From Bradymonas sediminis (GTDB taxonomy: Bacteria; Myxococcota_A; Bradymonadia; Bradymonadales; Bradymonadaceae), in assembly GCF_003258315.1 (NCBI RefSeq), contig NZ_CP030032.1, positions 1,526,001-1,590,000 of the forward strand: 64,000 nucleotides of DNA. The letters are read 5' to 3'. Below are positions 9,127-21,221 of the stretch, piece after piece (positions within the stretch are counted from its first letter, which is position 1; the number at the start of each line of letters is the position of its first letter). The position numbers were made by a program, and so were the translations under genes. The notes beneath the pieces are model-generated. The model saw only the letters and a list, made by a program, of their open reading frames with translations, was not told the origin of the DNA and searched no databases.

Positions 9127-10641
9127 ATGAACCATCTTAGCCTCTACGGTACCTCGCTCGCCCTGCTCACCGACCTCTATCAATTGACGATGGCGCAGGG
9201 CTATTGGAAGCAGGGGATGACCAAGACCGACGCGATCTTTCATCTGAATTTCAGGAAACCTCCATTCGGCGGCGGTTATGCGGTGGCGGCGGGGCTGAAG
9301 ACGGCCGTTGATTATATGCTCAAATATGAGTTTCAGCCCGATGATATCGAATATCTTGAGGGGCTTCGCGCCGATGATGACGAGCCGCTTTTTGACCCTG
9401 AGTTTTTGAAGTTTTTGGGGGAGATGAAGTTCTCCTGCAGCGTGGACGCGATGCCCGAGGGGAGCATTGTCTTCGGGCATGAGCCGATGCTTCGCATCGA
9501 GGGGCCGCTGATCCAATGCCAATTATTGGAGACCGCGTTGCTCAATATCATCAACTTCCAGACGCTTATCGCGACCAAGGCCGCGCGGGTTTGCCTGGCC
9601 GCCGAGGGTGAGCCGGTGCTGGAGTTCGGGTTGCGCCGGGCGCAGGGGATCGACGGCGGCATGGCTGCCTCGCGCGCCGCGTTTATCGGTGGCTGCTCGG
9701 CCACCTCCAACGTGCTCGCCGGCAAGCTCTTTGGCATCCCGGTCAAGGGTACGCACGCGCATTCCTGGATTATGAGCTTCGACTCCGAGATCGAGGCGTT
9801 TCGGGCCTACGCCGAGGCGATGCCCAATAATGTCGTCTTTTTGGTCGACACCTACGACACGATTGAGGGCGTCAAGAACGCGATCATCGTGGGCGACGAG
9901 ATGAAGAAGCTCGGCCATAAGGCCGCCGGCATTCGTCTGGACTCCGGAGACCTCGCCTGGCTCAGCATCCAGGCGCGCAAGATGCTCGATGAGGCGGGCT
10001 TTGAGGACACCGCGATCGTCGCGTCGAATAGCCTCAATGAGCGCACCATTCGCTCGCTTAAGGAGCAGGGTGCGACCATTGGGGTCTGGGGCGTGGGCAC
10101 GCATCTGGCGACCGGGTGGGACCATCCGGCGCTGGGCGGTGTGTATAAATTGTCGGCGGTGCGCGCCGAGGGCGGCGAGTGGAAGCCGAAGATTAAGGTG
10201 AGCGAGCAGCGGGTGAAGATCTCGAACCCCGGCCGCATCCAGGTGCGCCGATTCTGGCGCAATGAGCCGAGCCGCTTCGGGGGCAAAGGCGAGTTTATCG
10301 GCGATATGATCTATGACGAATTTATGGGCGAGCCGCAGACCAATATCATCGTCGACCCGCTCGATAGCACGCGCCGAAAACAGCTCGAAGGCTCCGGCTC
10401 CGACTTGCTCAAACCGATCTTCCGCGACGGCGAGTTCGTGGGCGAGGAGCACGTCAAAGACGACCTCTACGAGATTCAGGAGCACGCGCGCTATATGCTG
10501 TCGTATTTCGATGACAGCATTAAGCGCTTCGAGTATCCGCATCAATATCCGGCCGGCCTGGAGAAGAGCCTGCACGACCTCAAGACGAAGCTTATCATTG
10601 AGGCGCGCGGGTTTGAGGATGATACCTCCACCACCTGGTGA
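9127..10641 (+). CDS. pncB: Nicotinate phosphoribosyltransferase PncB
   Basis: Makes nicotinate mononucleotide from nicotinate and PRPP (Preiss-Handler salvage). Seen: [19 protein letters not shown] at the N-terminus, [16 protein letters not shown], then [20 protein letters not shown] carrying the catalytic region, [33 protein letters not shown] and GVGTHLATG. Its 504 residues match the long bacterial/eukaryotic form. No strong ribosome-binding site precedes the ATG at 9127. It is the last gene before the MoxR operon (54-nt gap) and adds to the NAD genes in this window (nadAB, pnuC, nadR). Confidence 0.95.
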
Positions 10642-10695: not shown

Positions 10696-12282
10696 ATGAG
10701 TCAATCGCATAGCGCAGACCAGGTCTCCCAGGCGCCGACGCGCCCGCCGAGCGCGGGGGCGTCTGACGCCGCTGAGTTCGACGTCGCCGACCTCTACCGG
10801 GACGCCTCGGCGGTAACTGCCTCCGAGGCGTCCACCAGCGCCCACGATGAGAAGCTGAGGCAGGCGTATTTTTGGGTCGTCAATCACGGCATAATCAGCC
10901 CGTTTTACGATATCGAGTATAACGACGCGCCGGCCCAGTCCTATAGCTTCGGGGACCAGAAGGTGCGGGTGACGCTGCCCAGCGAGCAGAGCTATTCGAG
11001 CTATGTGCTGCTGCCGCTGTTGAACCTCGCGCTTCGCCGGCGATGTTTGCTGGTGGGCGGGCCGGGGCGCGGCAAGACCGTCATCGCAAAATTGATGGGG
11101 ATTTTGTCGGGTTATAGCCTGACCGAGATTCGCCAGGGCATCCAGCACGGCCAGCCGCAGATGACGGTCGCCGACCTGTTGGGTAACCCGATCCCCTCGA
11201 CGCTGATGTCGGCCGAGACGATGGATGAGGTGCGCATCGCCTGGCGCAAATGGCTGAGCATGCGCATCAAGATTATCGACGAATATAACCGTATCCCGAC
11301 GCGCACGCAGTCCGCGCTGCTCACGGTGATGGCCGATAATTACGCCGAGATTTACGACCAGGTCTATGAGTGCCCGGAGGCCGCCTGGTACCTGACCGCC
11401 AATGATGATGCAGGCGGCGGGACCTATCAGGTGATCGAGGCGCTCAGCGACCGCATCGACGTAGTCGTGAAGGCGCTTCATTTCAATACGCGCTTTCTCG
11501 ATGACCTGGTGCTGCGCATCGAAGAGGGCGTGCGGCCGGAGACGATGGTCCCCGAGGAGATCATCTTCACGGAGGCCGAGTTTGAGGAGATGAGCCGCCA
11601 GATTCGCAAGGTGAAGTTGCCGCGAAAGCTAAGGCGTCGCTTTGAGTTTTTCGCCAGTCATTTCGAGTTCTTCGAGCCGGGGGCGCGCCAATTCGAGTAT
11701 ATGACCAAGGATACGGTAAAACTCACGGATATCGAGCTGCAGTCATTGGCCGGTGGCGACAGCGGCAAAGATGGTGTCGCGGATCTGGGGAGCCAGACGC
11801 GAAACGGCCTGTCGGTGCGTGCGCTGATGACCTGCATCGCGTTTATGAAGGGCATGGCTTATTTCCGCGGCGAAGACACGGTGTCCTACGAGGATATGCG
11901 CCAGATTCTGCCCTTCGTGCTGCATGATAAGCTCGTGCAGGAGCCCGATTCCCCGTATTTTGAGCAGACCAATCATGGGGCGCTTCGCACCGATAAGGTG
12001 AGCTGGATTCGCACGCTTTTGGACCTGTCGAGTCAGGAGTTTGAGCGCCTCAACCTGGACGCAGACGACCCGGTCGGCGCGTTCGAGATCGAGTTTGAGA
12101 AGGGCCTGGAAGATGTCAGCGCGCGCGAGGTTCGAAAGCGTATGGTGGCCATCGAGCGGGTGCTCAAGAAGTGGAGCGACGGGGGCAAGCTCTACGGTCA
12201 TATGTTCGACGATATTCTTAAATTAAAATACCTGCACCAGCGCTATACGAATTATCTGAGGTGGCTTGAGTGGAAGACTTAA
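10696..12282 (+). CDS. MoxR-type AAA+ ATPase (first gene of the metallopeptidase-VWA operon)
   Basis: A 528-residue cytoplasmic ATPase. Walker A GGPGRGKT at residues 121-128, Walker B IIDEYNRIP from 193, sensor-1 YLTANDDAGGGTYQ near 232-244 and an Arg in SDRID near 253 follow the MoxR pattern of remodelling ATPases. An N-terminal extension of about 90 residues and a C-terminal 200-residue helical region (rich in DDILKLKYLHQRYTNYLRW-like sequence) are specific to this protein. Family knowledge: MoxR ATPases usually work with VWA proteins encoded nearby, which activate or assemble client proteins. The three-part arrangement is met here, since VWA proteins follow in the same operon. The next gene overlaps its 3' end by 13 nt. 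It lacks a clear ribosome-binding site at ATG 10696. Confidence 0.9.
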   Translation: MSQSHSADQVSQAPTRPPSAGASDAAEFDVADLYRDASAVTASEASTSAHDEKLRQAYFWVVNHGIISPFYDIEYNDAPAQSYSFGDQKVRVTLPSEQSYSSYVLLPLLNLALRRRCLLVGGPGRGKTVIAKLMGILSGYSLTEIRQGIQHGQPQMTVADLLGNPIPSTLMSAETMDEVRIAWRKWLSMRIKIIDEYNRIPTRTQSALLTVMADNYAEIYDQVYECPEAAWYLTANDDAGGGTYQVIEALSDRIDVVVKALHFNTRFLDDLVLRIEEGVRPETMVPEEIIFTEAEFEEMSRQIRKVKLPRKLRRRFEFFASHFEFFEPGARQFEYMTKDTVKLTDIELQSLAGGDSGKDGVADLGSQTRNGLSVRALMTCIAFMKGMAYFRGEDTVSYEDMRQILPFVLHDKLVQEPDSPYFEQTNHGALRTDKVSWIRTLLDLSSQEFERLNLDADDPVGAFEIEFEKGLEDVSAREVRKRMVAIERVLKKWSDGGKLYGHMFDDILKLKYLHQRYTNYLRWLEWKT

Positions 12283-13367
12283 GCGGGGCCGACATCGATC
12301 GCGGCGCGCCGCGGGTTTGCGCGGCGCTGGCCGACGCCCTCAAGCGCGACCGGGATGCGTATAACGCGCGTTTTGCCCAGGCGCGCAGGCGCTGGCGTCA
12401 CCTCGATGGCGGCGCGTTCGCCGAGCATCTGGCGGACAATCTGAGCCCGATTGTCGACGCGGTGGCGGCTGTGCAGCCGGCGCGTGTCGATGCGGTGGTG
12501 CAGGGTTTATATGGGCTCTCGCTTCAGTATGTGGCGCGTCATTGGCTGGGGCCGAAGAGTCGCCAGCCCTATCTAAATCGACTGTGGCGCGAGCAACTGC
12601 CGAAGCTGTCGAGCTTTGTGGCGCAGGAGCCGGTCGCAGTGGCCCGGGCGCTCACGGTCGCGGCGCGCAGCATCGGCGGGCGATCGGAGGGCGAGAGGGC
12701 GAGGGTTTGGATGAAACGCCTCGTTGAGATCGCCGCTGCTCATCCCAAAGATTGCGCCGCCTTCGACACCGTTTTGGATGTCGGTAAGGTCCTCGCCTGG
12801 CGCTGTGGCATGGCGCATTATCGCGCCAGCGCGCTCGCGGTATGGCGTGGGTTGAGCGACGAGTTGCGCTACCAATCACTTATATTATCGCCGCCAGATG
12901 ATGGGGCGTTGCTCGATGTGGCGACGCGCCCCGGGCTTGATGCGCTCGACGCGGCGTTTGCCAACCCGTGGTTTCATCCTGCCAGGCATCGTCCCGGTGC
13001 GCTGCGCGTGAGCGAAGAAGTGCCTGATGCGTTGTCGATTCAATCGGTTGGGGGATTTGCGGGCTTTGGCTACGACTTCCACGCGCCGCCCCGGGTGATT
13101 GCGCTCGGCGAGGAGCTCTTCGCGGTGGATGGCGAGCGCTGGTTTCGCATCTTTGCCGACGCGTTTGGCACGAGCCTTCGGGCGGTCGAGCCTCGGGCAA
13201 ACGATGCTCCGCGCTTAAGCGACGCCGAGCTCGCGCGCCTGGAGAAATGGAAGTCCGCGGCCTTGGCGCTGGAGCCGAATCTTGGCGATGCGACCTCGGC
13301 CGCGCTGCTGCCGTCGACCCTCGCGCTCACCGTACCCCACAGTCATCGCGTCTTTTTGGTGAGCTGA
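12270..13367 (+). CDS. Uncharacterised protein linked to MoxR/VWA operon
   Basis: A 365-residue protein I do not recognise. It starts with GTG at 12270 (MEDLSGADIDRGA), 13 nt inside the MoxR gene, so translation is coupled. It is mostly helical by composition: an N-terminal Arg/Asp-rich helix (residues 15-50), a middle of repeated Ala/Leu/Arg/Trp helices (GLYGLSLQYVARHWLG, WMKRLVEIAAAH, ALAVWRGLSDE), and a C-terminal mixed region with GGFAGFGYDFHAPPRVIALG, a possible beta domain. No signal peptide, membrane helix, Walker or protease motif. Its position suggests an adaptor between the ATPase and the VWA-peptidases, comparable in role to the associated third component of MoxR/VWA ternary systems (inference). 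Confidence 0.75.
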   Translation: MEDLSGADIDRGAPRVCAALADALKRDRDAYNARFAQARRRWRHLDGGAFAEHLADNLSPIVDAVAAVQPARVDAVVQGLYGLSLQYVARHWLGPKSRQPYLNRLWREQLPKLSSFVAQEPVAVARALTVAARSIGGRSEGERARVWMKRLVEIAAAHPKDCAAFDTVLDVGKVLAWRCGMAHYRASALAVWRGLSDELRYQSLILSPPDDGALLDVATRPGLDALDAAFANPWFHPARHRPGALRVSEEVPDALSIQSVGGFAGFGYDFHAPPRVIALGEELFAVDGERWFRIFADAFGTSLRAVEPRANDAPRLSDAELARLEKWKSAALALEPNLGDATSAALLPSTLALTVPHSHRVFLVS

Positions 13368-13372
13368 AATCC

Positions 13373-15139
13373 ATGGCAAAAACAGACCTTTTAGGCATCC
13401 ATAAACAGTGGGAAGAGGCGTGGCCAAAGGCGCTCGGCGCGTGGAGCGACTTCACCAAAATGCAGCGGCCGATCTGGTGTTTTTCGCCCGAAGAAGAGCG
13501 AGAGGTTGGGCTTAGGGGCTCGTTCGCGGCGATTCGCCTGCTCGACCATAAGGTGATGATCAGCTTGTCTCAGATCGCGGAATATCAGCTCGAAGACTAC
13601 GGCGCGGAGATCCTCGCCCATGAGATCGGCCATCATGTCTACGCGCCGGCGAACCTCACCGACCATGCTCGGCTGTTGGCGCGTCTTCGCGCGGGGCTTG
13701 GGTCTAACGTGGAGTTTGCCGGTTTGATCGCCAATCTCTATACCGACCTGCTCATCAATGACCGATTACAGCGCGACGTCGGCATGGATATCGCGGGGGT
13801 CTATGCGAAGGTTGTCGCCCACAGCGGCCCACCCGAGCAGCCGCTGTGGCGGCTGTATTACCGCACCTACGAGGTGCTGTGGAACCTCGAGCCCGGGACC
13901 CTGGTCAGCGGCGAGGTTGAGCCGGGCATCAACCTCGACGCAACCCTGATGGCGCGGCTGATTCGGGTCTATAGCAAATATTGGCTCGAAGGGGCGGGGC
14001 GGTTTGCGCTGCTCTGCCTGGATTATTTGAAGGGGTTTCCCCCGGCGCCGGCGTCGCTCGAGGGTGTTTGGGTGACGCTCGACAGCCAGGATGCCGGCGA
14101 AGGCGGGGTGATCCCGGACGGCATCGCGCGCGAGGAGGAGGGCGAGGGTGGCGGGCTTGTGCACCCGCGCCTGGACCCCGAGCTCGGCGGGCTTGCGCCG
14201 CGCAGCTCAAAGGAGAAGTCGCCCGGCAGCCGCGACGGGCGCGAGGAGGACGGTGGGCAAAAAGGGCGATTTCGCGCCCCCGCTGAGTATATCGAGCTGA
14301 TGAAGAGCATCGGCGTTGAGCGCGATTCCAGTGAGATCGTGATTCAATATTATAAAGAGCGAGCGCGCCCTCATTATATTAAATTTCCCACCGGAAGGAT
14401 GCCCGTCGAGAACGAGCCGATTTTCGAGGGCGTCGAGCCCTGGGAGCTTGGCTCACCGGTGTCGCGCATCGATTGGGTGGAGAGCGCTGTGCGCAGCCCT
14501 TATATCATCCCCGGGGTCACGACCGTCGAGCGGACCTATCGTCAGGTGCGCAGTCCCGAGGCCGAGACGCGCCCGGTCGACCTCTATTTGGGCATTGATT
14601 GCTCGGGCTCGATGAATAACCCGAGCCGTCGCTGCTCTTATCCGGTGCTCGCCGGCGCGATTATGGTGAGCGCGGCGATGCGCGCGGGCGCGCGGGTGAT
14701 GAGCGTGCTCTCCGGGGAGCCGGGCGAATATCTGTCGAGCGACGGGTTTAGCCGCGACGAGAAAGAACATTTGGGCGTGCTGACCTCGTATCTAGGAACC
14801 GGTTATTCTTTCGGCGCTGAGCGGCTTAAGGAGGTTTTCGTCGACAAGAAAGCACCCGAGCGCGCGTGTCATATTCTGCTCCTTACTGACGCTGATATCT
14901 TTCATATGTTCGACCAAACTCCGAACGGCTGGGAGATCGCAAGAATCGCCGCCGAGCGCGCAGGCGGTGGGGCGACTTGTGTCCTGGAGATTCGCTATCC
15001 GGACTCCTGCGCCGAGCCCCTCGCGCGCCTTCGTGAGATCGGTTGGACGCCGTATTTGGTGAACGATCAGGAGGGTGTGGTGGAGTTCGCGCGCCAATTT
15101 AGCAAGGCGCATTATGAGCGAAACGGGAGGCGACGATGA
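13373..15139 (+). CDS. HEXXH metallopeptidase-VWA fusion protein, intact copy
   Basis: A 588-residue two-domain protein. N-terminal domain: HEIGH at residues 83-87 within EILAHEIGHHVYAP, the zincin motif, followed at 121-132 by NLYTDLLINDRL, whose Asp could be a third ligand. C-terminal domain (about 400-588): a VWA fold with MIDAS DCSGS at 409-413, Thr at 476 in LGTGYSFG and Asp at 506 in LLLTDADIF. A Glu/Gly-rich charged linker (about 245-300) joins them. The start at ATG 13373 aligns with the second copy of this protein. The architecture recalls the DUF2201 family (metallopeptidase-like plus VWA-like), often found next to MoxR ATPases. The start is 5 nt after the preceding gene. No secretion signal, so a cytoplasmic regulated protease or chaperone partner is likely. 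The target is unknown. Confidence 0.88.
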   Translation: MAKTDLLGIHKQWEEAWPKALGAWSDFTKMQRPIWCFSPEEEREVGLRGSFAAIRLLDHKVMISLSQIAEYQLEDYGAEILAHEIGHHVYAPANLTDHARLLARLRAGLGSNVEFAGLIANLYTDLLINDRLQRDVGMDIAGVYAKVVAHSGPPEQPLWRLYYRTYEVLWNLEPGTLVSGEVEPGINLDATLMARLIRVYSKYWLEGAGRFALLCLDYLKGFPPAPASLEGVWVTLDSQDAGEGGVIPDGIAREEEGEGGGLVHPRLDPELGGLAPRSSKEKSPGSRDGREEDGGQKGRFRAPAEYIELMKSIGVERDSSEIVIQYYKERARPHYIKFPTGRMPVENEPIFEGVEPWELGSPVSRIDWVESAVRSPYIIPGVTTVERTYRQVRSPEAETRPVDLYLGIDCSGSMNNPSRRCSYPVLAGAIMVSAAMRAGARVMSVLSGEPGEYLSSDGFSRDEKEHLGVLTSYLGTGYSFGAERLKEVFVDKKAPERACHILLLTDADIFHMFDQTPNGWEIARIAAERAGGGATCVLEIRYPDSCAEPLARLREIGWTPYLVNDQEGVVEFARQFSKAHYERNGRRR

Positions 15140-15735
15140 GGCAGGGACCGCCCATTCAAAAGTTGACGTATCGGTTGAGCGAATGCCCGCCCAAATTCCT
15201 TAAGGAGCCTGTGCTTAAGGGGCGAGGCGAGGTGCATGTGCGCGCGGTGGTCGCCGATTTGATGGCTGAGTTTGGCGCGCCCCTGTGGGCCGAAGATGCG
15301 TTCCGGAAGTTTCAGACCAAGAAGGTCGCCAAGCGAAATTGGCTGCGCGTGGTGTTGGTGGCGTCGTGGTTGCTTCACGACCCCTGGTTTCGTGATTATG
15401 CGCGGATTGAAGGCGACACATTCGCGCCACGGGTCTTGGCGTGGCTGCGCGATGACCTCAAGGAGTTCGCCCGGCTGATCGCGGTGGAGGCGTGTGTCGA
15501 AATGCCGGACCGGCGCGAGGAATTGGCACGCCGCTGCCTGGCGGGGCTGGGGCTGATGCCGGCCGGCGAATCGCCGGCGCAGGCGGAGAATCGCCTGGCG
15601 ACCCTCGATAGCATCGCGCAGCACCGTATTCTCTTCGACACAAAAAAGCGTATGGAGCGGGCGGAGCGTTTGCGCCAGAAGATGAAAGTTCAAGAAGATG
15701 CCAGACGCGCAGCCGCGCGCGCTTCGCGGGAGTGA
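15136..15735 (+). CDS. Small partner of the metallopeptidase-VWA protein, copy 1
   Basis: A 199-residue protein without a recognised family. Its ATG overlaps the stop of the metallopeptidase-VWA gene by 4 nt (ATGA) and has GGGAGG 5 nt upstream, so it is translationally coupled. It is helical, with a Trp-rich centre (NWLRVVLVASWLLHDPWFRDY), a RREELARRCLAGLGLMP block and a basic, coiled-coil-like C-terminus (KKRMERAERLRQKMKVQED). The same blocks (NWMRVVLVATWLLYDPWFR, REELARRCLMALGLLP) recur in the protein encoded at 18989, so the two are paralogs. The strict pairing with a metallopeptidase-VWA gene suggests a dedicated subunit. Confidence 0.75.
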   Translation: MRQGPPIQKLTYRLSECPPKFLKEPVLKGRGEVHVRAVVADLMAEFGAPLWAEDAFRKFQTKKVAKRNWLRVVLVASWLLHDPWFRDYARIEGDTFAPRVLAWLRDDLKEFARLIAVEACVEMPDRREELARRCLAGLGLMPAGESPAQAENRLATLDSIAQHRILFDTKKRMERAERLRQKMKVQEDARRAAARASRE

Positions 15736-15738
15736 GCG

Positions 15739-17154
15739 ATGCTACCAGGTTTTGAGGCTTTTCAATCGCTTAATCCGCTGATTACGCGGGATGGTTATGC
15801 GTTGCTCGAGCGCCTCTACACACATCCGTGCGCGCCGCGCTGGAACGAAGTCATCGGCGACCGTTTCGTCACCGAGGACCTCGCCGCGGTCGCGGCGTTT
15901 CGGCGGCGACTGCAGCAATGGCCCGGCGCCACCGCGGGGCAACCGGCGTATGCGAGCGCGCCGCCGCCGAGCATTCTCGAGTGGGTCCAGCAGATGCGCC
16001 AGCGCTCGCCCATCTTTCGCGCGCATATCCTGGAGGGCTTTCCGCTGGCGCGCGATTGGGCCTATCTGCCGACGATGAGCCGGCGTGATATCGCGGAGCG
16101 CCCTGTCGACATCACGCCGATGGACGCGGATCTTAAGCGACTCATCGTCTACGATACCACCGGGACCACCGGGCACGCGGTCATCGTCCCGCATCATCCG
16201 CGCACGCTCGCGTTTAGCCAGGCGCTGGGCGAATACGCGATGGGTCGCTACGGCGTGCAGCCGGTGTTTGGGGCTGGCCGGGTCGGGTGCTTCAATATCG
16301 GCGCGCAGGTGAATACCTATGTCTTCGCGGCGATCTTTTCGGTCTGGGAGCAATCCGGTTTTGCCAAGATTAACCTGCATCCCAAAGACTGGTCCGACGG
16401 CGCGACCTATGAGTTCGGCGAGTCGGTGGAGCGGGCCAGGGCGTATGTGGAGGCGTTTTCGCCGGAGTTTATTACCTCGGACCCGGTGGGCATCGCCGAG
16501 ATGCTCCGCTGGGAGGTCGGCCACGGCGCCAAGGCCATCTTCTCGACAGCCGTGGAGCTCAGCGCGGGCCTCAAGGCACAGGCCGAGGCGCGCTTTGGCT
16601 GTCCGGTCATCGACTGGTATTCCATGACTGAGACGGGCCCGATCGCGTTCAGCGCGCCGGACGGCGACGGGCTTGAGATCATCAGCCCGGATATCTTTGT
16701 CGAGGCGATCGACGAAGATGGCTTTCCGGTAGGTCCCGATAAAATCGGCGAGCTCACCGTGACGGGCGGGCGAAACCCGTATCTGCCGCTGCTTCGCTAC
16801 CGCACCGGCGACTTCGGGCGGGTGGCAAATGGACGCATCCACGACCTCCATGCGCGCAAGCTCGTCTTCTTTCGTGCGGCCGATGGTGCGTTGGTCAACC
16901 CGGTCGACATCGGTCGAATCATGCGACTTCATTGCGCGTTTGCGCAGCATCAATTCGTGCAGCAGGCCAACGGTGCGTGTCGAGTGCGCGTGCGGCCGGT
17001 GCCCGGAGTCGCGGTCGACCGTGAGGGGCTTCGGCGCGAACTTGCCACGCTATTCGGTGAGGAGGTAGACATAGAGGTCATTGTTGATGAGCAGCTTGGA
17101 GATGGGCAGCCGGGTGGGAAGGTCGAACCCTATATGCAGCATGGTGAGATTTGA
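15739..17154 (+). CDS. PaaK/CapK-like adenylate-forming enzyme
   Basis: A 471-residue member of the acyl-adenylate (ANL) superfamily, closest in pattern to phenylacetate-CoA ligase/CapK proteins. Seen: the phosphate-loop YDTTGTTG at residues 138-145, SMTETGP at 295-301 (the Y-G-x-T-E-type motif), YRTGDFG at 354-360 (ATP ribose-binding Asp) and a late Lys in GGKV at 459-462 that could be the adenylation Lys. These key residues look intact, so ATP-dependent activation of a carboxylate is expected. The substrate is unknown. It lies 3 nt after the small partner gene and 62 nt before the second metallopeptidase-VWA gene, so it sits inside the duplicated module. An enzyme of this family is unusual in a MoxR/VWA operon. 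Confidence 0.85.
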   Translation: MLPGFEAFQSLNPLITRDGYALLERLYTHPCAPRWNEVIGDRFVTEDLAAVAAFRRRLQQWPGATAGQPAYASAPPPSILEWVQQMRQRSPIFRAHILEGFPLARDWAYLPTMSRRDIAERPVDITPMDADLKRLIVYDTTGTTGHAVIVPHHPRTLAFSQALGEYAMGRYGVQPVFGAGRVGCFNIGAQVNTYVFAAIFSVWEQSGFAKINLHPKDWSDGATYEFGESVERARAYVEAFSPEFITSDPVGIAEMLRWEVGHGAKAIFSTAVELSAGLKAQAEARFGCPVIDWYSMTETGPIAFSAPDGDGLEIISPDIFVEAIDEDGFPVGPDKIGELTVTGGRNPYLPLLRYRTGDFGRVANGRIHDLHARKLVFFRAADGALVNPVDIGRIMRLHCAFAQHQFVQQANGACRVRVRPVPGVAVDREGLRRELATLFGEEVDIEVIVDEQLGDGQPGGKVEPYMQHGEI

Positions 17155-17216
17155 CTCACGATGGCGTGTCTGTTTTGGGCGCGTCGCCAACTTATATTGA
17201 GAAGAGGCCGAGCGTT

Positions 17217-18992
17217 ATGTCGACCAAAATCGCAGAACTCCAGGAACGCTGGGAGGCCGCCTGGCCCGAGGCGCTGAAGATGTGGGGTTCACTTTTCGTA
17301 TTGCCCAAGCCCACCTGGCAGCTCACGGAGCAGGATAAATTAGACGCCGGCTTTGAGCTCGCCATCTGGGGGAAGCCGACGTCTTCGTGGAGTCGCGAGC
17401 CATTGGCGGAGGCGTTTGAGGGGGCGCTCGGGGTGATTCGCCTGTCTGACGGTAGCGTCGCGATAAACCTTGGAAGAATCACCGACTACGGGCTCGAGGA
17501 TAATGCTCCGGAGATCCTCGCCCACCTCATCGGCCATCATTTCTATGTGCCCGGGAATCGTGTCGATAACGCCAGGCTGATGGCGAATATTCTGGACGGG
17601 CTTCTGTCAACGAGGGGAGGGGCGCTGGCGGGGGTCACGGCGAATCTCTACGCCGACCTGCTGGTGAATGACCGGCTGGTGCGAAAATTTGGCATGAATA
17701 TGGTGGGCGTTTTTGAGAAAATGATCGCCCGGGACGGCCCGCCGACGCAGCCAATTTGGAAGCTCTATTTTCGCGCCTACGAGGTGCTGTGGGATCTTTC
17801 GCCCGGCACCCTGGCCGGCGCCGATGTCTCGCCCGAGGTCAACGTCGACGCGATTCTTATCGCTCGCCTTATCCGCCACTATCATGAGAATTGGGTCGAG
17901 GGGGGCGGGGCGTTTGCGGCGCTTCTTTTCGAATATATCTTCGGCCTAAGCTCAAGCGAAATCGCGGGCGCGCCGAGCATAATGGCGATGTTTGACTGCC
18001 TGGACGCCGGGCGAGGGGCCGATATTCCGCAGGGTTTGGCGCGCCATACGCGCAGTGAAATAGCGGGCATCGCTCATCCGCGGCGTGACCCCAGGCTTGG
18101 GGGCTTCGCTCAACTTCCGACCCCGAATGCCTATGATGTGTGGGAGTCGGGCGTCGTCGACCCTGCAAATCCGCCGGTTGATTATGAAGGTGAGGGGAAC
18201 ACCGACGCCCGAGGCACCTACCGCTCACTCGAAGCCTATTTCGAGGTGATGAAGAGCGCGCTGGCCTACGATGAGATCTGGGGACATTGGGGTAATTTCG
18301 AGGCGAAACGAAGACTGATCGTTCAATATTATAAGGAGCGGGCGCGCCCTTATATTGTCCGCTTTGGGCAGGGCGATTCGGGCGAAGATCTGGCGCGAAG
18401 ACGGTGCCCCGCAGATCTCTATTTGGGGATCGACTCCTCCCAGGCGATGCCGAGTCCGCAGCACCAGCTATCGCACCCGATCTTGGCGGGGATGGTCGTG
18501 CTCGACGCGGCGCTCGAGGCTGGCGCGAAGATCATGAGCGTGAGCTCAAGCGAGCCCAAGGTGCCCGGTTCCTCGAGCGAATATTGGATGAGCGATGGGT
18601 TTGGGCAGGATGAAGCGCAGCACCAAAGAGTGCTGAGCATCTTTGGGGGCGGTGGGTATGCCTTCGGGGTGTTGAGGCTCAAAGAGACTTTTGTCGACGG
18701 GCCGAGGCGCGAGGACCCCTGCCATATCTTGATATTTACGAATGAGCGCTTCTTCCAGATGCTCGATGAGACGCCGCAGGGCTGGGAGATCGCCCAGGCC
18801 GCAGCGCAGCGAGCTGGCGGCGGCGCGACCTGTGTGCTCACCGTATCCGAAGGCGCTGATTATGCCGCGGAGCTCGCGAGGCTTAGGAAGGTTGGTTGGG
18901 TGCCTCATCTTGCGGGCGAGACCAAAGAAATGATCGCCATTGCCCGCCAATTTAGCCGGACTCATTATCTAAACGCCTCGAGGTCGCGATGA
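17217..18992 (+). CDS. Degenerate metallopeptidase-VWA paralog (pseudo-enzyme copy)
   Basis: A 591-residue paralog of the protein at 13373. ATG 17217 aligns with the start of the other copy (MSTKIAELQERWEAAWPEAL against MAKTDLLGIHKQWEEAWPKAL). The fold blocks are kept: NLYADLLVNDRL, the YYKERARP linker and a VWA-like C-terminus. The catalytic HEIGH is HLIGH (residues 103-107, Glu to Leu). The MIDAS DCSGS is DSSQA (406-410), the Thr is replaced by Gly (GGGG, near 479) and the later Asp by Asn (FTNERFF, 509). Protease and metal-adhesion functions should therefore both be lost, yet the gene is full length with no stops. It probably serves as a structural or regulatory partner (inference). It overlaps the next gene by 4 nt. 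Confidence 0.87.
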   Translation: MSTKIAELQERWEAAWPEALKMWGSLFVLPKPTWQLTEQDKLDAGFELAIWGKPTSSWSREPLAEAFEGALGVIRLSDGSVAINLGRITDYGLEDNAPEILAHLIGHHFYVPGNRVDNARLMANILDGLLSTRGGALAGVTANLYADLLVNDRLVRKFGMNMVGVFEKMIARDGPPTQPIWKLYFRAYEVLWDLSPGTLAGADVSPEVNVDAILIARLIRHYHENWVEGGGAFAALLFEYIFGLSSSEIAGAPSIMAMFDCLDAGRGADIPQGLARHTRSEIAGIAHPRRDPRLGGFAQLPTPNAYDVWESGVVDPANPPVDYEGEGNTDARGTYRSLEAYFEVMKSALAYDEIWGHWGNFEAKRRLIVQYYKERARPYIVRFGQGDSGEDLARRRCPADLYLGIDSSQAMPSPQHQLSHPILAGMVVLDAALEAGAKIMSVSSSEPKVPGSSSEYWMSDGFGQDEAQHQRVLSIFGGGGYAFGVLRLKETFVDGPRREDPCHILIFTNERFFQMLDETPQGWEIAQAAAQRAGGGATCVLTVSEGADYAAELARLRKVGWVPHLAGETKEMIAIARQFSRTHYLNASRSR

Positions 18993-19594
18993 GCCAGGGA
19001 CCATCCATACAAAGTCTCACTCGCCGGCTTCGGGATTGCCCGCCGGAGCGCTTTTCTGAGCCCAAAAGCGCGCGCGCGAACGGCATCGCCGTCGAGGCGG
19101 TGGTCGCTGATCTGATGGCCGAACTCGGCGGTGGGCCCATCGATGCTGAAACGCGGGCCGTCTTGAGCGACGCAGCGCCCGAGGTGCGCAATTGGATGCG
19201 CGTTGTGCTGGTCGCGACCTGGCTGCTCTATGACCCGTGGTTTCGCGCGCAGGCCGACCTCGTCGGTGACCCCAGCTTCGCGGCGAGCGCGTTGCGCTGG
19301 ATGCTCGAAGACCTTAGGGCGTTGGCCGGCGTCGTCGCGGCGGACCACTTGGTCGAGGAGCCCTTCGGCCGCGAAGAGTTGGCCCGGCGCTGCCTGATGG
19401 CGCTCGGGTTGCTGCCGCTTGACGAGTCCGCCGAGCAGGCAAAGATTCGTCTGGCCAATCTCGACTCCGTCGCGCGCTATCGGGTGCTTATGGGCTCAGA
19501 GGAGTATCAAAAGACCGCCGAGCGCCACCGCCAAAGAAAGGCCGAATATGAGCGTTCATTGAGGGCTCATGCGGCGCGTTGGACGCGTGAATAG
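18989..19594 (+). CDS. Small partner of the metallopeptidase-VWA protein, copy 2
   Basis: A 201-residue paralog of the protein at 15136, with its ATG overlapping the preceding stop (ATGA), the same arrangement as copy 1. Shared blocks are NWMRVVLVATWLLYDPWFR, REELARRCLMALGLLP and a basic helical C-terminus (KTAERHRQRKAEYERSLRAH). It is the last gene of the operon, and the opposing nadR gene ends 20 nt later. It may pair with the degenerate metallopeptidase-VWA protein. Function unknown. Confidence 0.75.
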   Translation: MSQGPSIQSLTRRLRDCPPERFSEPKSARANGIAVEAVVADLMAELGGGPIDAETRAVLSDAAPEVRNWMRVVLVATWLLYDPWFRAQADLVGDPSFAASALRWMLEDLRALAGVVAADHLVEEPFGREELARRCLMALGLLPLDESAEQAKIRLANLDSVARYRVLMGSEEYQKTAERHRQRKAEYERSLRAHAARWTRE

Positions 19595-19614: not shown

Positions 19615-20655
19615 TTAGTGTTTTGATGCGCCCGCGGGTTTTGCCTGTGCTAAGCAGCGCTCAACGGCCGCCACCGCGCGCTCGAAGCGCTCTTCCCAAG
19701 TGCCGTGAATGTGCACATAGGGGCGGTCGTTCTCCTCAAGCGTGCGCTTGCATCGCTTGAAGAACGCGCGGCGTTTATCGTGCTCGGGGAAATAGCGCTG
19801 GTTGTCGTCGACCCAGTCCACGTCGACGTCGAGGAGCAGGGTGAGGTCGTAGGTGCGGCGCCTGGCCTGGGCGCTGACCCATTCGGGGCATTTTCCGAAG
19901 AGGACGTCGCTCCAGATCGTGGTGGTCAGGGCGTCGGTGTCGCTAAAGAGGACGCGGTTGGCGCGCGGGGCCAGGGCGTCTTCGGCGGCGGCCTGGCCGC
20001 GGGCGATGCGCTCGATATCCGGGTAGTCACAGTGGCCGTCTTTAAAGTTGAGCAGCGGGCGCGCGTATTCGTGGACGTAGACGGTGTCGAAGTGCCGGGC
20101 GAGGTCGGCGGTGAGGGTCGATTTGCCGGTGGACTCCGGGCCGAAGATGCACACGCGGCGCAAATAATAGGAGCGGACTTCGTCGGGGATAAAGCGCCAG
20201 TTTGCCATCGGGTTTTCGCGAATCGCGGTGCCGCTCACGGGCATAAGTTCGCGGGCCGGGTCGACCGGCACGAATTCGGCGTCTAGCACCTCGGCCAATT
20301 TGAAGCCGTAGTCTTCGGAGGCGAAGACCAGGTCGACGCCGTCGGGCATCGCGCTGAGCACGAGGTTGCGCCAGATGGGCCAGAAGTTGGGATCTTCGTC
20401 GGGGGTCTGCGGGACGTCGTCGGTGATATGGACGACCCGGCAATCCGGGAACATCCGCCGCATCCAATGGTAGCGAAGGGCGCCGTCGATGGGTTCGCGC
20501 TCGAGCGTACAGACTAGGATGGTGAGGTCGTCGCAGTAGTTGCGCGCGAAGTCGGCCAGGTAGCGATGGCCGGCGTGTGGGGGCAAAAATTTGCCCAGGA
20601 TCATGCCCCTTGTGCGCTCAGGGGGCGCTGATTTTCGCGATGCGTTTTCATCCAT
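19615..20655 (-). CDS. nadR: NadR-like NMN adenylyltransferase/ribosylnicotinamide kinase
   Basis: Bifunctional enzyme that phosphorylates nicotinamide riboside and adenylates NMN to NAD. Seen: the nucleotidyltransferase motif GKFLPPHAGH near residue 20, SGTAIRENP (the ISGTxIR-type motif), then a P-loop GPESTGKST starting the kinase domain and a VHEYARPLL block. There is no N-terminal DNA-binding helix-turn-helix, so it lacks the repressor domain of enterobacterial NadR. Start: ATG 20655 has AGGA about 8 nt upstream. An ATG at 20604 that overlaps the pnuC stop (ATGA) is a second possibility and would cut 17 residues before the motif. It lies downstream of pnuC in one operon. Confidence 0.9.
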   Translation of the reverse strand: MDENASRKSAPPERTRGMILGKFLPPHAGHRYLADFARNYCDDLTILVCTLEREPIDGALRYHWMRRMFPDCRVVHITDDVPQTPDEDPNFWPIWRNLVLSAMPDGVDLVFASEDYGFKLAEVLDAEFVPVDPARELMPVSGTAIRENPMANWRFIPDEVRSYYLRRVCIFGPESTGKSTLTADLARHFDTVYVHEYARPLLNFKDGHCDYPDIERIARGQAAAEDALAPRANRVLFSDTDALTTTIWSDVLFGKCPEWVSAQARRRTYDLTLLLDVDVDWVDDNQRYFPEHDKRRAFFKRCKRTLEENDRPYVHIHGTWEERFERAVAAVERCLAQAKPAGASKH

Positions 20656-21221
20656 TCCAATAGTCCTGCGATCGCCAATCCTAAGAAGACGAGATAGAGC
20701 CCGCTGGTGAGGTAGAGGCCTTTGGTCAGATACACGCCAATGGCAATGACGTCGACCACGATCCAGAAGACCCACGATTCGAGGATCTTTTTGCCCAAGA
20801 ACCACTGGGCGATCAAGCTGAGCACGGTGGTCGCAGCGTCCCAATAGGGCAGGCTCGCGTCGGTATAGGTGCTCATCGCGAAGCCCAGGCCGGCGACGCC
20901 TACCGCGCCGACCGCCCAGGCCGCGCCGAATTGAGCTGTGCTCAGCCGGGTCACCTTCGCCTTGCCTCCGTCATCCTTATCTCGCCCGCCGTTGAGCCAA
21001 TAATACCAGCCATAGATCTGCATGAAGATATAGACGATTTGAAGGCCCATATCGGAGTAGAGCTTCGCGTCGTAGAAGATGAAGATATAGAGGGTGACCA
21101 TGACCAGGCCGGTCGGCCAGCACCAGATATTCTGGCGCGTGCTGAACCAGACCGAGGCCAGGCCGGTGATGGTGGCGGCGATTTCGATGGGGCTCATAAA
21201 GCTGAGCAGGGTTTCGAGCAT
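20601..21221 (-). CDS. pnuC: Nicotinamide riboside transporter PnuC
   Basis: A 206-residue inner-membrane protein with about seven hydrophobic helices. Family blocks include WFSTRQNIWCWPTGLVMV, the YSDMGLQIVYIFMQIYGWYYW block and the C-terminal WDAATTVLSLIAQWFLGKK plus VFWIVVDVIAIGVYL. PnuC carries nicotinamide riboside by facilitated diffusion, and phosphorylation by NadR traps it. The frame is open further upstream to 21386, but that part is Pro-rich and repetitive (it is the 46-bp repeat), so ATG 21221 (MLETLLSFMSP) is chosen. It overlaps nadR, forming pnuC-nadR. Confidence 0.92.
   Translation of the reverse strand: MLETLLSFMSPIEIAATITGLASVWFSTRQNIWCWPTGLVMVTLYIFIFYDAKLYSDMGLQIVYIFMQIYGWYYWLNGGRDKDDGGKAKVTRLSTAQFGAAWAVGAVGVAGLGFAMSTYTDASLPYWDAATTVLSLIAQWFLGKKILESWVFWIVVDVIAIGVYLTKGLYLTSGLYLVFLGLAIAGLLEWMKTHRENQRPLSAQGA

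Follow-up and report, generated by a model that had tools for sequence, protein, structure and literature searches.

Pairs of a MoxR-type AAA+ ATPase and a protein with a von Willebrand factor A (VWA) domain are widespread, and few of them have a known client. Those whose role is known serve to remodel client enzymes or to mature them (reviewed in PMC7159879). The MoxR-VWA ternary systems, with VMAP, iSTAND, FtsH or beta-propeller components, have been proposed to be conflict systems (Kaur et al. 2020; PMC7159879), and in group 2.2 jumbo phages a MoxR plus metallopeptidase-VWA pair has a proposed role in virion assembly (PMC7824862). Here we analysed a seven-gene locus of Bradymonas sediminis, whose genome is a single contig of 5.05 Mb. 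The locus lies in a stretch of 64,000 nucleotides (nt) of this contig (NZ_CP030032.1, positions 1,526,001 to 1,590,000), called the window below. The gene set is of the MoxR-VWA type and has an unexpected physiological link to the salvage of nicotinamide adenine dinucleotide (NAD). A sequence-only reading of the window knew of no described system with such content, and our literature search agreed, finding no description of the gene set or of a combination of MoxR with PaaK, of NadR, PnuC and MoxR, or of MoxR, VWA and nicotinamide riboside.

The seven genes all lie on the plus strand, and the distances between successive frames were as that reading had given them (-13, 5, -4, 3, 62 and -4 nt, negative values being overlaps).

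10696 to 12282, plus strand: gene 1, MoxR-type AAA+ ATPase, 528 amino acids (aa)
12270 to 13367, plus strand: gene 2, protein X, 365 aa
13373 to 15139, plus strand: gene 3, zincin-VWA protein, 588 aa
15136 to 15735, plus strand: gene 4, small all-helical protein, 199 aa
15739 to 17154, plus strand: gene 5, PaaK-like adenylate-forming enzyme, 471 aa
17217 to 18992, plus strand: gene 6, paralog of gene 3 with degenerate motifs, 591 aa
18989 to 19594, plus strand: gene 7, paralog of gene 4, 201 aa

These genes reduce to a five-gene module of MoxR ATPase, X, metalloprotease/VWA protein, small helical protein and PaaK-like ligase; genes 6 and 7 are a duplication of genes 3 and 4 that was seen only in this genome and was absent at the other loci examined. 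Relatives were found by searches with gene 3 and with a profile of its orthologs, followed by open reading frame (ORF) calling with a codon model, and the ORF starts in relatives are those of our own caller. The sequence-only reading had asked whether the gene order recurs in other genomes. Order and content were repeated at more than 20 loci of two phyla, so the gene set is not due to chance. The closer loci, clade A (MoxR 57-72% and VWA 38-53% identical to the window genes), belong to Myxococcota and to a second phylum, that of Candidatus Ozemobacter, which we take to be Riflebacteria. Most of them, in both phyla, retain the order MoxR-X-VWA-small-PaaK, and in about half, again in both phyla, the 13-nt overlap of MoxR and X is exact. 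In the more distant clade B, MoxR-X-VWA-small is joined by a PaaK-like gene at some loci and by a radical S-adenosylmethionine (SAM) set at others. Promoter and terminator scans gave nothing above chance. A mobile element was considered and rejected, as the module had no match on plasmids or phages and its GC content is even with that of the window.

The ligase was examined in 379 Myxococcota genomes, where a carrier was defined by a full-length match to the clade A VWA protein and a PaaK ortholog by a match to the ligase profile A4 at E 1e-90 or better. All 16 carriers had the ortholog, against 0 of the 363 other genomes. The ligase gene was unlinked from the module in four of these carriers (G229, G297, G175 and G270) and in one genome of the second phylum (G392); in G321 gene 4 is interrupted by a contig break, which had masked the adjacency of the ligase gene. 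The adenylate-forming enzyme that the sequence-only reading had placed among the additions to the MoxR core is therefore a genuine part of the system, even when unlinked. The possibility that PaaK is a mere neighbour was rejected because carriers that lack it at the locus have it at another place in the genome. Gene 5 is a PaaK-like, putatively adenylate-forming enzyme whose A3, A5 and A7 motifs and C-terminal Lys are intact (TTGTTG, YSMTE, RYRTGD and the Lys of GKV; the motifs are found also in relatives). Its presence in every carrier sampled of one phylum and in no non-carrier makes it a direct and testable client or partner.

The strongest functional clue lies next door, just outside the seven genes that had been read, where three genes of NAD salvage flank the module on its two sides.

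9127 to 10641, plus strand: nicotinate phosphoribosyltransferase (NAPRT), separated from the downstream MoxR gene by 54 nt (Pfam NAPRTase_N 1.2e-37, NAPRTase_C 3.5e-11)
19615 to 20604, minus strand: NadR-type nicotinamide mononucleotide (NMN) adenylyltransferase / ribosylnicotinamide kinase, convergent with gene 7 and 20 nt from it (TIGR01526 4.6e-82, below cut-off)
20601 to 21221, minus strand: PnuC nicotinamide riboside (NR) transporter (TIGR01528 1e-32, above cut-off; Pfam NMN_transporter 4.8e-60)

Among the Myxococcota, PnuC was found in 9 of the 16 clade A carriers against 16 of the 363 others (p 4e-8) and NadR in 12 of the 16 against 32 of the 363 (p 2e-9); these p values treat genomes as independent and ignore shared ancestry, an effect that is reduced when PnuC is counted by genus (7/13 versus 13/223, p 1e-5). 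No association of PnuC with clade B was found in this phylum. In the second phylum, sampled by 40 genomes, PnuC and the VWA gene were found in exactly the same 7 genomes (7/7 versus 0/33, p 5e-8), and in each of these PnuC and NadR are next to the module or close to it, often in overlapping frames directly after PaaK. NadR, PnuC or both also flank the module at L035, L037 and L089, on differing sides and strands. The NadR proteins fall into two types, one about 57-62% identical to that of the window (motifs GKFLPPHAGH and GPESTGKS) and the other near 30%, and those that we checked retain both the nucleotidyltransferase and the kinase motifs. The link, perfect in the second phylum sampled, offers a physiological read-out in NR-dependent growth and NAD pools. 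NAPRT was rejected as a conserved neighbour of the module, since it was found beside it in the window only and had no match near the VWA gene at other loci.

The core of the module agreed with the MoxR/VWA partnership that had been proposed for it. Gene 1 matched AAA_3 (E 5.1e-9, 36.5 bits versus a cut-off of 27) and AAA_lid_2 (E 4.4e-7, 30 bits versus 22.7), both above the Pfam cut-offs, as well as PDB entry 2r44 (E 1.8e-7), and it carries Walker A (GGPGRGKT) and Walker B (IIDE) motifs. The catalytic and metal-binding positions of gene 3, including its metal ion-dependent adhesion site (MIDAS), were compared with those of gene 6 in an alignment of 34 members.

13619 to 13633, plus strand: HEIGH zinc-peptidase motif of gene 3 (HExxH conserved in 33 of the 34 members, gene 6 being the exception)
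14597 to 14611, plus strand: MIDAS core DCSGS of gene 3 (DxSGS conserved in the same 33 members, again with the exception of gene 6)
17523 to 17537, plus strand: HLIGH of gene 6, in place of HEIGH

The later MIDAS Asp of gene 3, D507, is likewise kept in 33 of the 34 members and lost in gene 6 only, and the invariant Asp126 in NxxxDxxxN is a candidate third zincin ligand. The M48 family (Peptidase_M48) matched 7 members (best E 2.4e-5) and VWA_2 matched 8 (best E 3.4e-4), in keeping with a zincin-VWA fusion. With HExxH and a further candidate ligand gene 3 is a zincin predicted to be active, and with a complete MIDAS encoded beside MoxR it has the features of a MoxR co-chaperone. Gene 6 is a paralog of gene 3 (E 5e-143) and its sister in the tree (support 100/99; gene 6 on a long branch, 1.01 versus 0.32), in which DSSQA replaces DCSGS and Asn replaces the late MIDAS Asp. 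As it has lost both the catalytic Glu of zincins and the MIDAS, gene 3 alone appears to be a functional protease, and gene 6 is best read as a non-catalytic subunit, a predicted dead enzyme. Of the two metallopeptidase-VWA proteins claimed by the sequence-only reading, gene 3 thus stands and gene 6, judged by its motif, does not. One member of the VWA alignment A10 matches PF04228 (neutral zinc metallopeptidase, E 2.7e-33), which is either a fusion or an artefact of ORF calling. Among single loci, a separate M48 peptidase lies upstream of MoxR in G200 (L088:4384-5982), an aminotransferase class I/II gene overlaps the MoxR start in G321 (L086:4741-6012), and in G011 a 736-aa protein without a Pfam match and a 505-aa protein lie between the VWA and small genes (L038:9157-13003).

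The remaining two proteins of the module belong to families that were unrecognised. Pfam, NCBIfam and PADLOC were searched for the window proteins, and neither X, the 365-residue protein that had been called unknown, nor the small protein of gene 4 had a meaningful match; their relatives had none in Pfam. X has a helical N-terminal part, a beta-rich C-terminal part and a conserved GGFxGFGGxF..PP motif, and its orthologs occupy the same slot between MoxR and VWA at other loci. The AlphaFold2 model of gene 4, made from five sequences, is all-helical and confident (pLDDT 81). Its fold gave no Foldseek match at E 0.001 and no solved relative was found, the best VIA-align hit having a Z of 3.8 that is not meaningful for a helical protein. 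Genes 4 and 7 are paralogs (E 3e-56), as had been proposed, but their pairing stems from the duplication seen in this genome only.

The last residue of gene 4, Glu199, is invariant in 19 of 19 clade A rows and is one of nine invariant positions; the small proteins of L089 and L090 have one Asp added after the terminal Glu, and gene 7 retains a C-terminal TRE. At the PaaK-bearing clade B loci (L044, L095, L096 and L098) the small protein keeps the RE ending, whereas at the radical SAM loci of clade B (L043, L046, L048 and L097) it ends in KW, a switch that the tree places in a single evolutionary event. The usual binding partner of a VWA MIDAS site is an acidic residue, integrin I domains and midasin being examples. 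We therefore read the Glu tail first as a docking element; its adenylation is the more novel reading. The module adds, besides two unrecognised protein families, a conserved C-terminal Glu that is open to a simple mutational test.

Several loci carry further genes. At the four radical SAM loci of clade B (L043:6350-9858, L046:4925-8187, L048:1693-4862 and L097:5599-8634) the small gene is followed by an unrecognised protein, a radical SAM enzyme and a third protein that is aminotransferase-like by eye, with no Pfam match. In G032, a second gene group about 3 kb beyond the VWA gene (L042:9602-14998) encodes a longer, 317-aa protein of the small type ending in RRE, a PaaK-like enzyme and a radical SAM enzyme. 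At L091:3418-5724, and also at L092 and L093, a 768-aa protein with isochorismatase-like, kinase-like/TCAD9 and DSP phosphatase regions lies beside the small gene. Its isochorismatase cysteine seems replaced, and the protein may bridge the module and the ternary conflict systems.

With moderate confidence we favour an explanation in which the module is an ATP-driven machine for remodelling or maturation that has an adenylating enzyme of its own and, in most carriers, is coupled to the supply of NAD. The five proteins would form an obligate machine, with MoxR as the ATPase ring, the zincin-VWA protein as its co-chaperone and protease arm, and X and the small protein as dedicated adaptors. The PaaK-like enzyme, predicted to adenylate a carboxylate, would be either the client of this machine or its dedicated chemistry. 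The small protein may dock on the VWA metal site through its invariant Glu, and the ATP-driven movement of MoxR would present a bound client, the ligase or its product, at the HExxH site for remodelling or cleavage. Since known MoxR-VWA pairs remodel or mature their clients, the most economical assumption is that the ligase, or its product, is matured or switched. In most carriers the machine would be coupled to NR import by PnuC and to conversion to NAD by NadR, so whatever it matures, switches or turns over would be expected to belong to pyridine-nucleotide metabolism. In this genome genes 3 and 4 are duplicated, and copy 6 would have turned into a non-catalytic subunit. Several points weigh against this explanation. 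PnuC and NadR are not adjacent to the module in most Myxococcota, four carriers are without NadR, and the p values are subject to the shared ancestry noted above. In G200, G172 and G321, the genes immediately after PaaK are a pair encoding radical SAM enzymes (L088:12345-14086, L094:2667-4564 and L123:6207-7930), and these three genomes have neither PnuC nor NadR, so coupling to NAD is not universal. X was modelled poorly (pLDDT 52), and the docking of the tail on the MIDAS is our inference, which a model of the small protein alone cannot show.

The same tail could instead be a site of chemistry. The PaaK-like enzyme might adenylate the C-terminal Glu in the manner of an E1 enzyme for transfer to a target, with the zincin processing or removing the tag under MoxR control. 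The invariance of the Glu in clade A and at PaaK-bearing clade B loci, the KW tail where the partner is a radical SAM enzyme, and the obligate presence of PaaK all speak for it, but the KW switch arose once, PaaK enzymes usually take small aromatic acids, and the predicted fold is plain helical and not ubiquitin-like; we regard it as unlikely. A wider version, quite unlikely in our view, has the PaaK-like enzyme activate the C-terminal Glu of a small carrier under MoxR/zincin-VWA control, tied to NR/NAD supply, with radical SAM chemistry taking its place, and the tail changing from RE to KW, in related systems; if true, the module would represent a new class of machine that uses ATP to modify or mature proteins. 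The substrate preference of PaaK relatives, which activate aromatic acids, suits rather a small-molecule or cofactor pathway. There the PaaK-like enzyme would activate a pyridine or other nicotinate-related carboxylate, MoxR-VWA would act like a chelatase or insertase by analogy with CoxD-CoxE and Mg-chelatase, and the radical SAM pair would be an alternative tailoring route. The adjoining NAD salvage genes fit this, as does the radical SAM pair directly after PaaK in G200, G172 and G321, all without NadR (p 0.007). However, no cyclase, methyltransferase or apo-enzyme is conserved with the module and the role of the HExxH domain is left unexplained, and we hold this pathway doubtful.

A conflict system of the ternary kind, anti-phage or self-killing, in which NR import and NadR would replenish NAD following an attack, would account for the accessory genes that vary among loci and for the L091 variant, whose TCAD9 domain (E 1e-46) is known from such systems, themselves proposed to act in conflict (PMC7159879). 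We consider it improbable. Every carrier keeps one ligase ortholog, no effector was found, and PADLOC defence models gave only marginal AAA matches in the window. The identified neighbours there, NAPRT, NadR and PnuC, are metabolic, and the module was not found on plasmids or phages. Genes 2 and 4 and their relatives matched no ternary-system family in Pfam, which we assume to hold the families of Kaur et al. (this was confirmed for TCAD9 only). A last explanation accepts the five-gene module as real and ascribes the NAD-salvage link to hitch-hiking, or to a common ecology in which bacteria that live by scavenging or predation keep both. The Bradymonabacteria have been described as poly-auxotrophic predators (PMC7460792), and an enrichment of salvage genes in them may therefore have other reasons; moreover, PnuC is unlinked in 6 of its 9 Myxococcota carriers. 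Against this stand the complete match with close linkage in the second phylum, the persistence of linkage across convergent, downstream and upstream placements with two NadR types, and clade B, which shows no such association in the same phylum. We judge this explanation very improbable.

The sequence-only reading had likened the HExxH-VWA proteins to DUF2201 (PF13203/PF09967). The two share a collinear layout of HExxH, NxxxDxxxN and VWA, and profile-profile comparison with DUF2201 proteins of related genomes gave weak but collinear matches of both halves (P 6.8e-5 for VWA and 4.7e-4 for HExxH, from six rows, of which L129 was probably read in a wrong frame). DUF2201 models, however, matched none of the 34 members, gene 3 and gene 6 included, even at E 1, and found nothing in the window's genome, and the gene 3 family is longer, at about 590 aa versus about 400 aa. 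Membership was therefore rejected at the level of the models, no match being above cut-off; the resemblance is probably one of remote kinship, and that much of the comparison holds. Gene 5 shares adenylate-forming motifs and PDB matches with PaaK and DVU_1553-family AMP-dependent ligases (profile A4 versus phenylacetate-CoA ligase 9s3l, E 8e-18). It differs in falling far below the equivalog cut-off of NF045666, the DVU_1553-family model (E 1.4e-21; 77 versus 300 bits), in a conserved N-terminal extension and in its obligate MoxR/VWA partnership. The jumbo-phage pair (PMC7824862) also joins MoxR to a VWA co-chaperone with an N-terminal metallopeptidase domain, but no X, small protein, ligase or NAD genes are reported alongside it, and P0003 gave no phage relative even at E 1. 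With the ternary systems (PMC7159879) the module shares the MoxR and VWA core, extra conserved partners, variable added genes including radical SAM enzymes, and TCAD9 in one variant. Unlike them, it has no recognised VMAP, iSTAND, FtsH or beta-propeller component, and is distinguished by an HExxH-VWA fusion, an obligate PaaK-like ligase, the link to NAD salvage, and the unrecognised X and small proteins.

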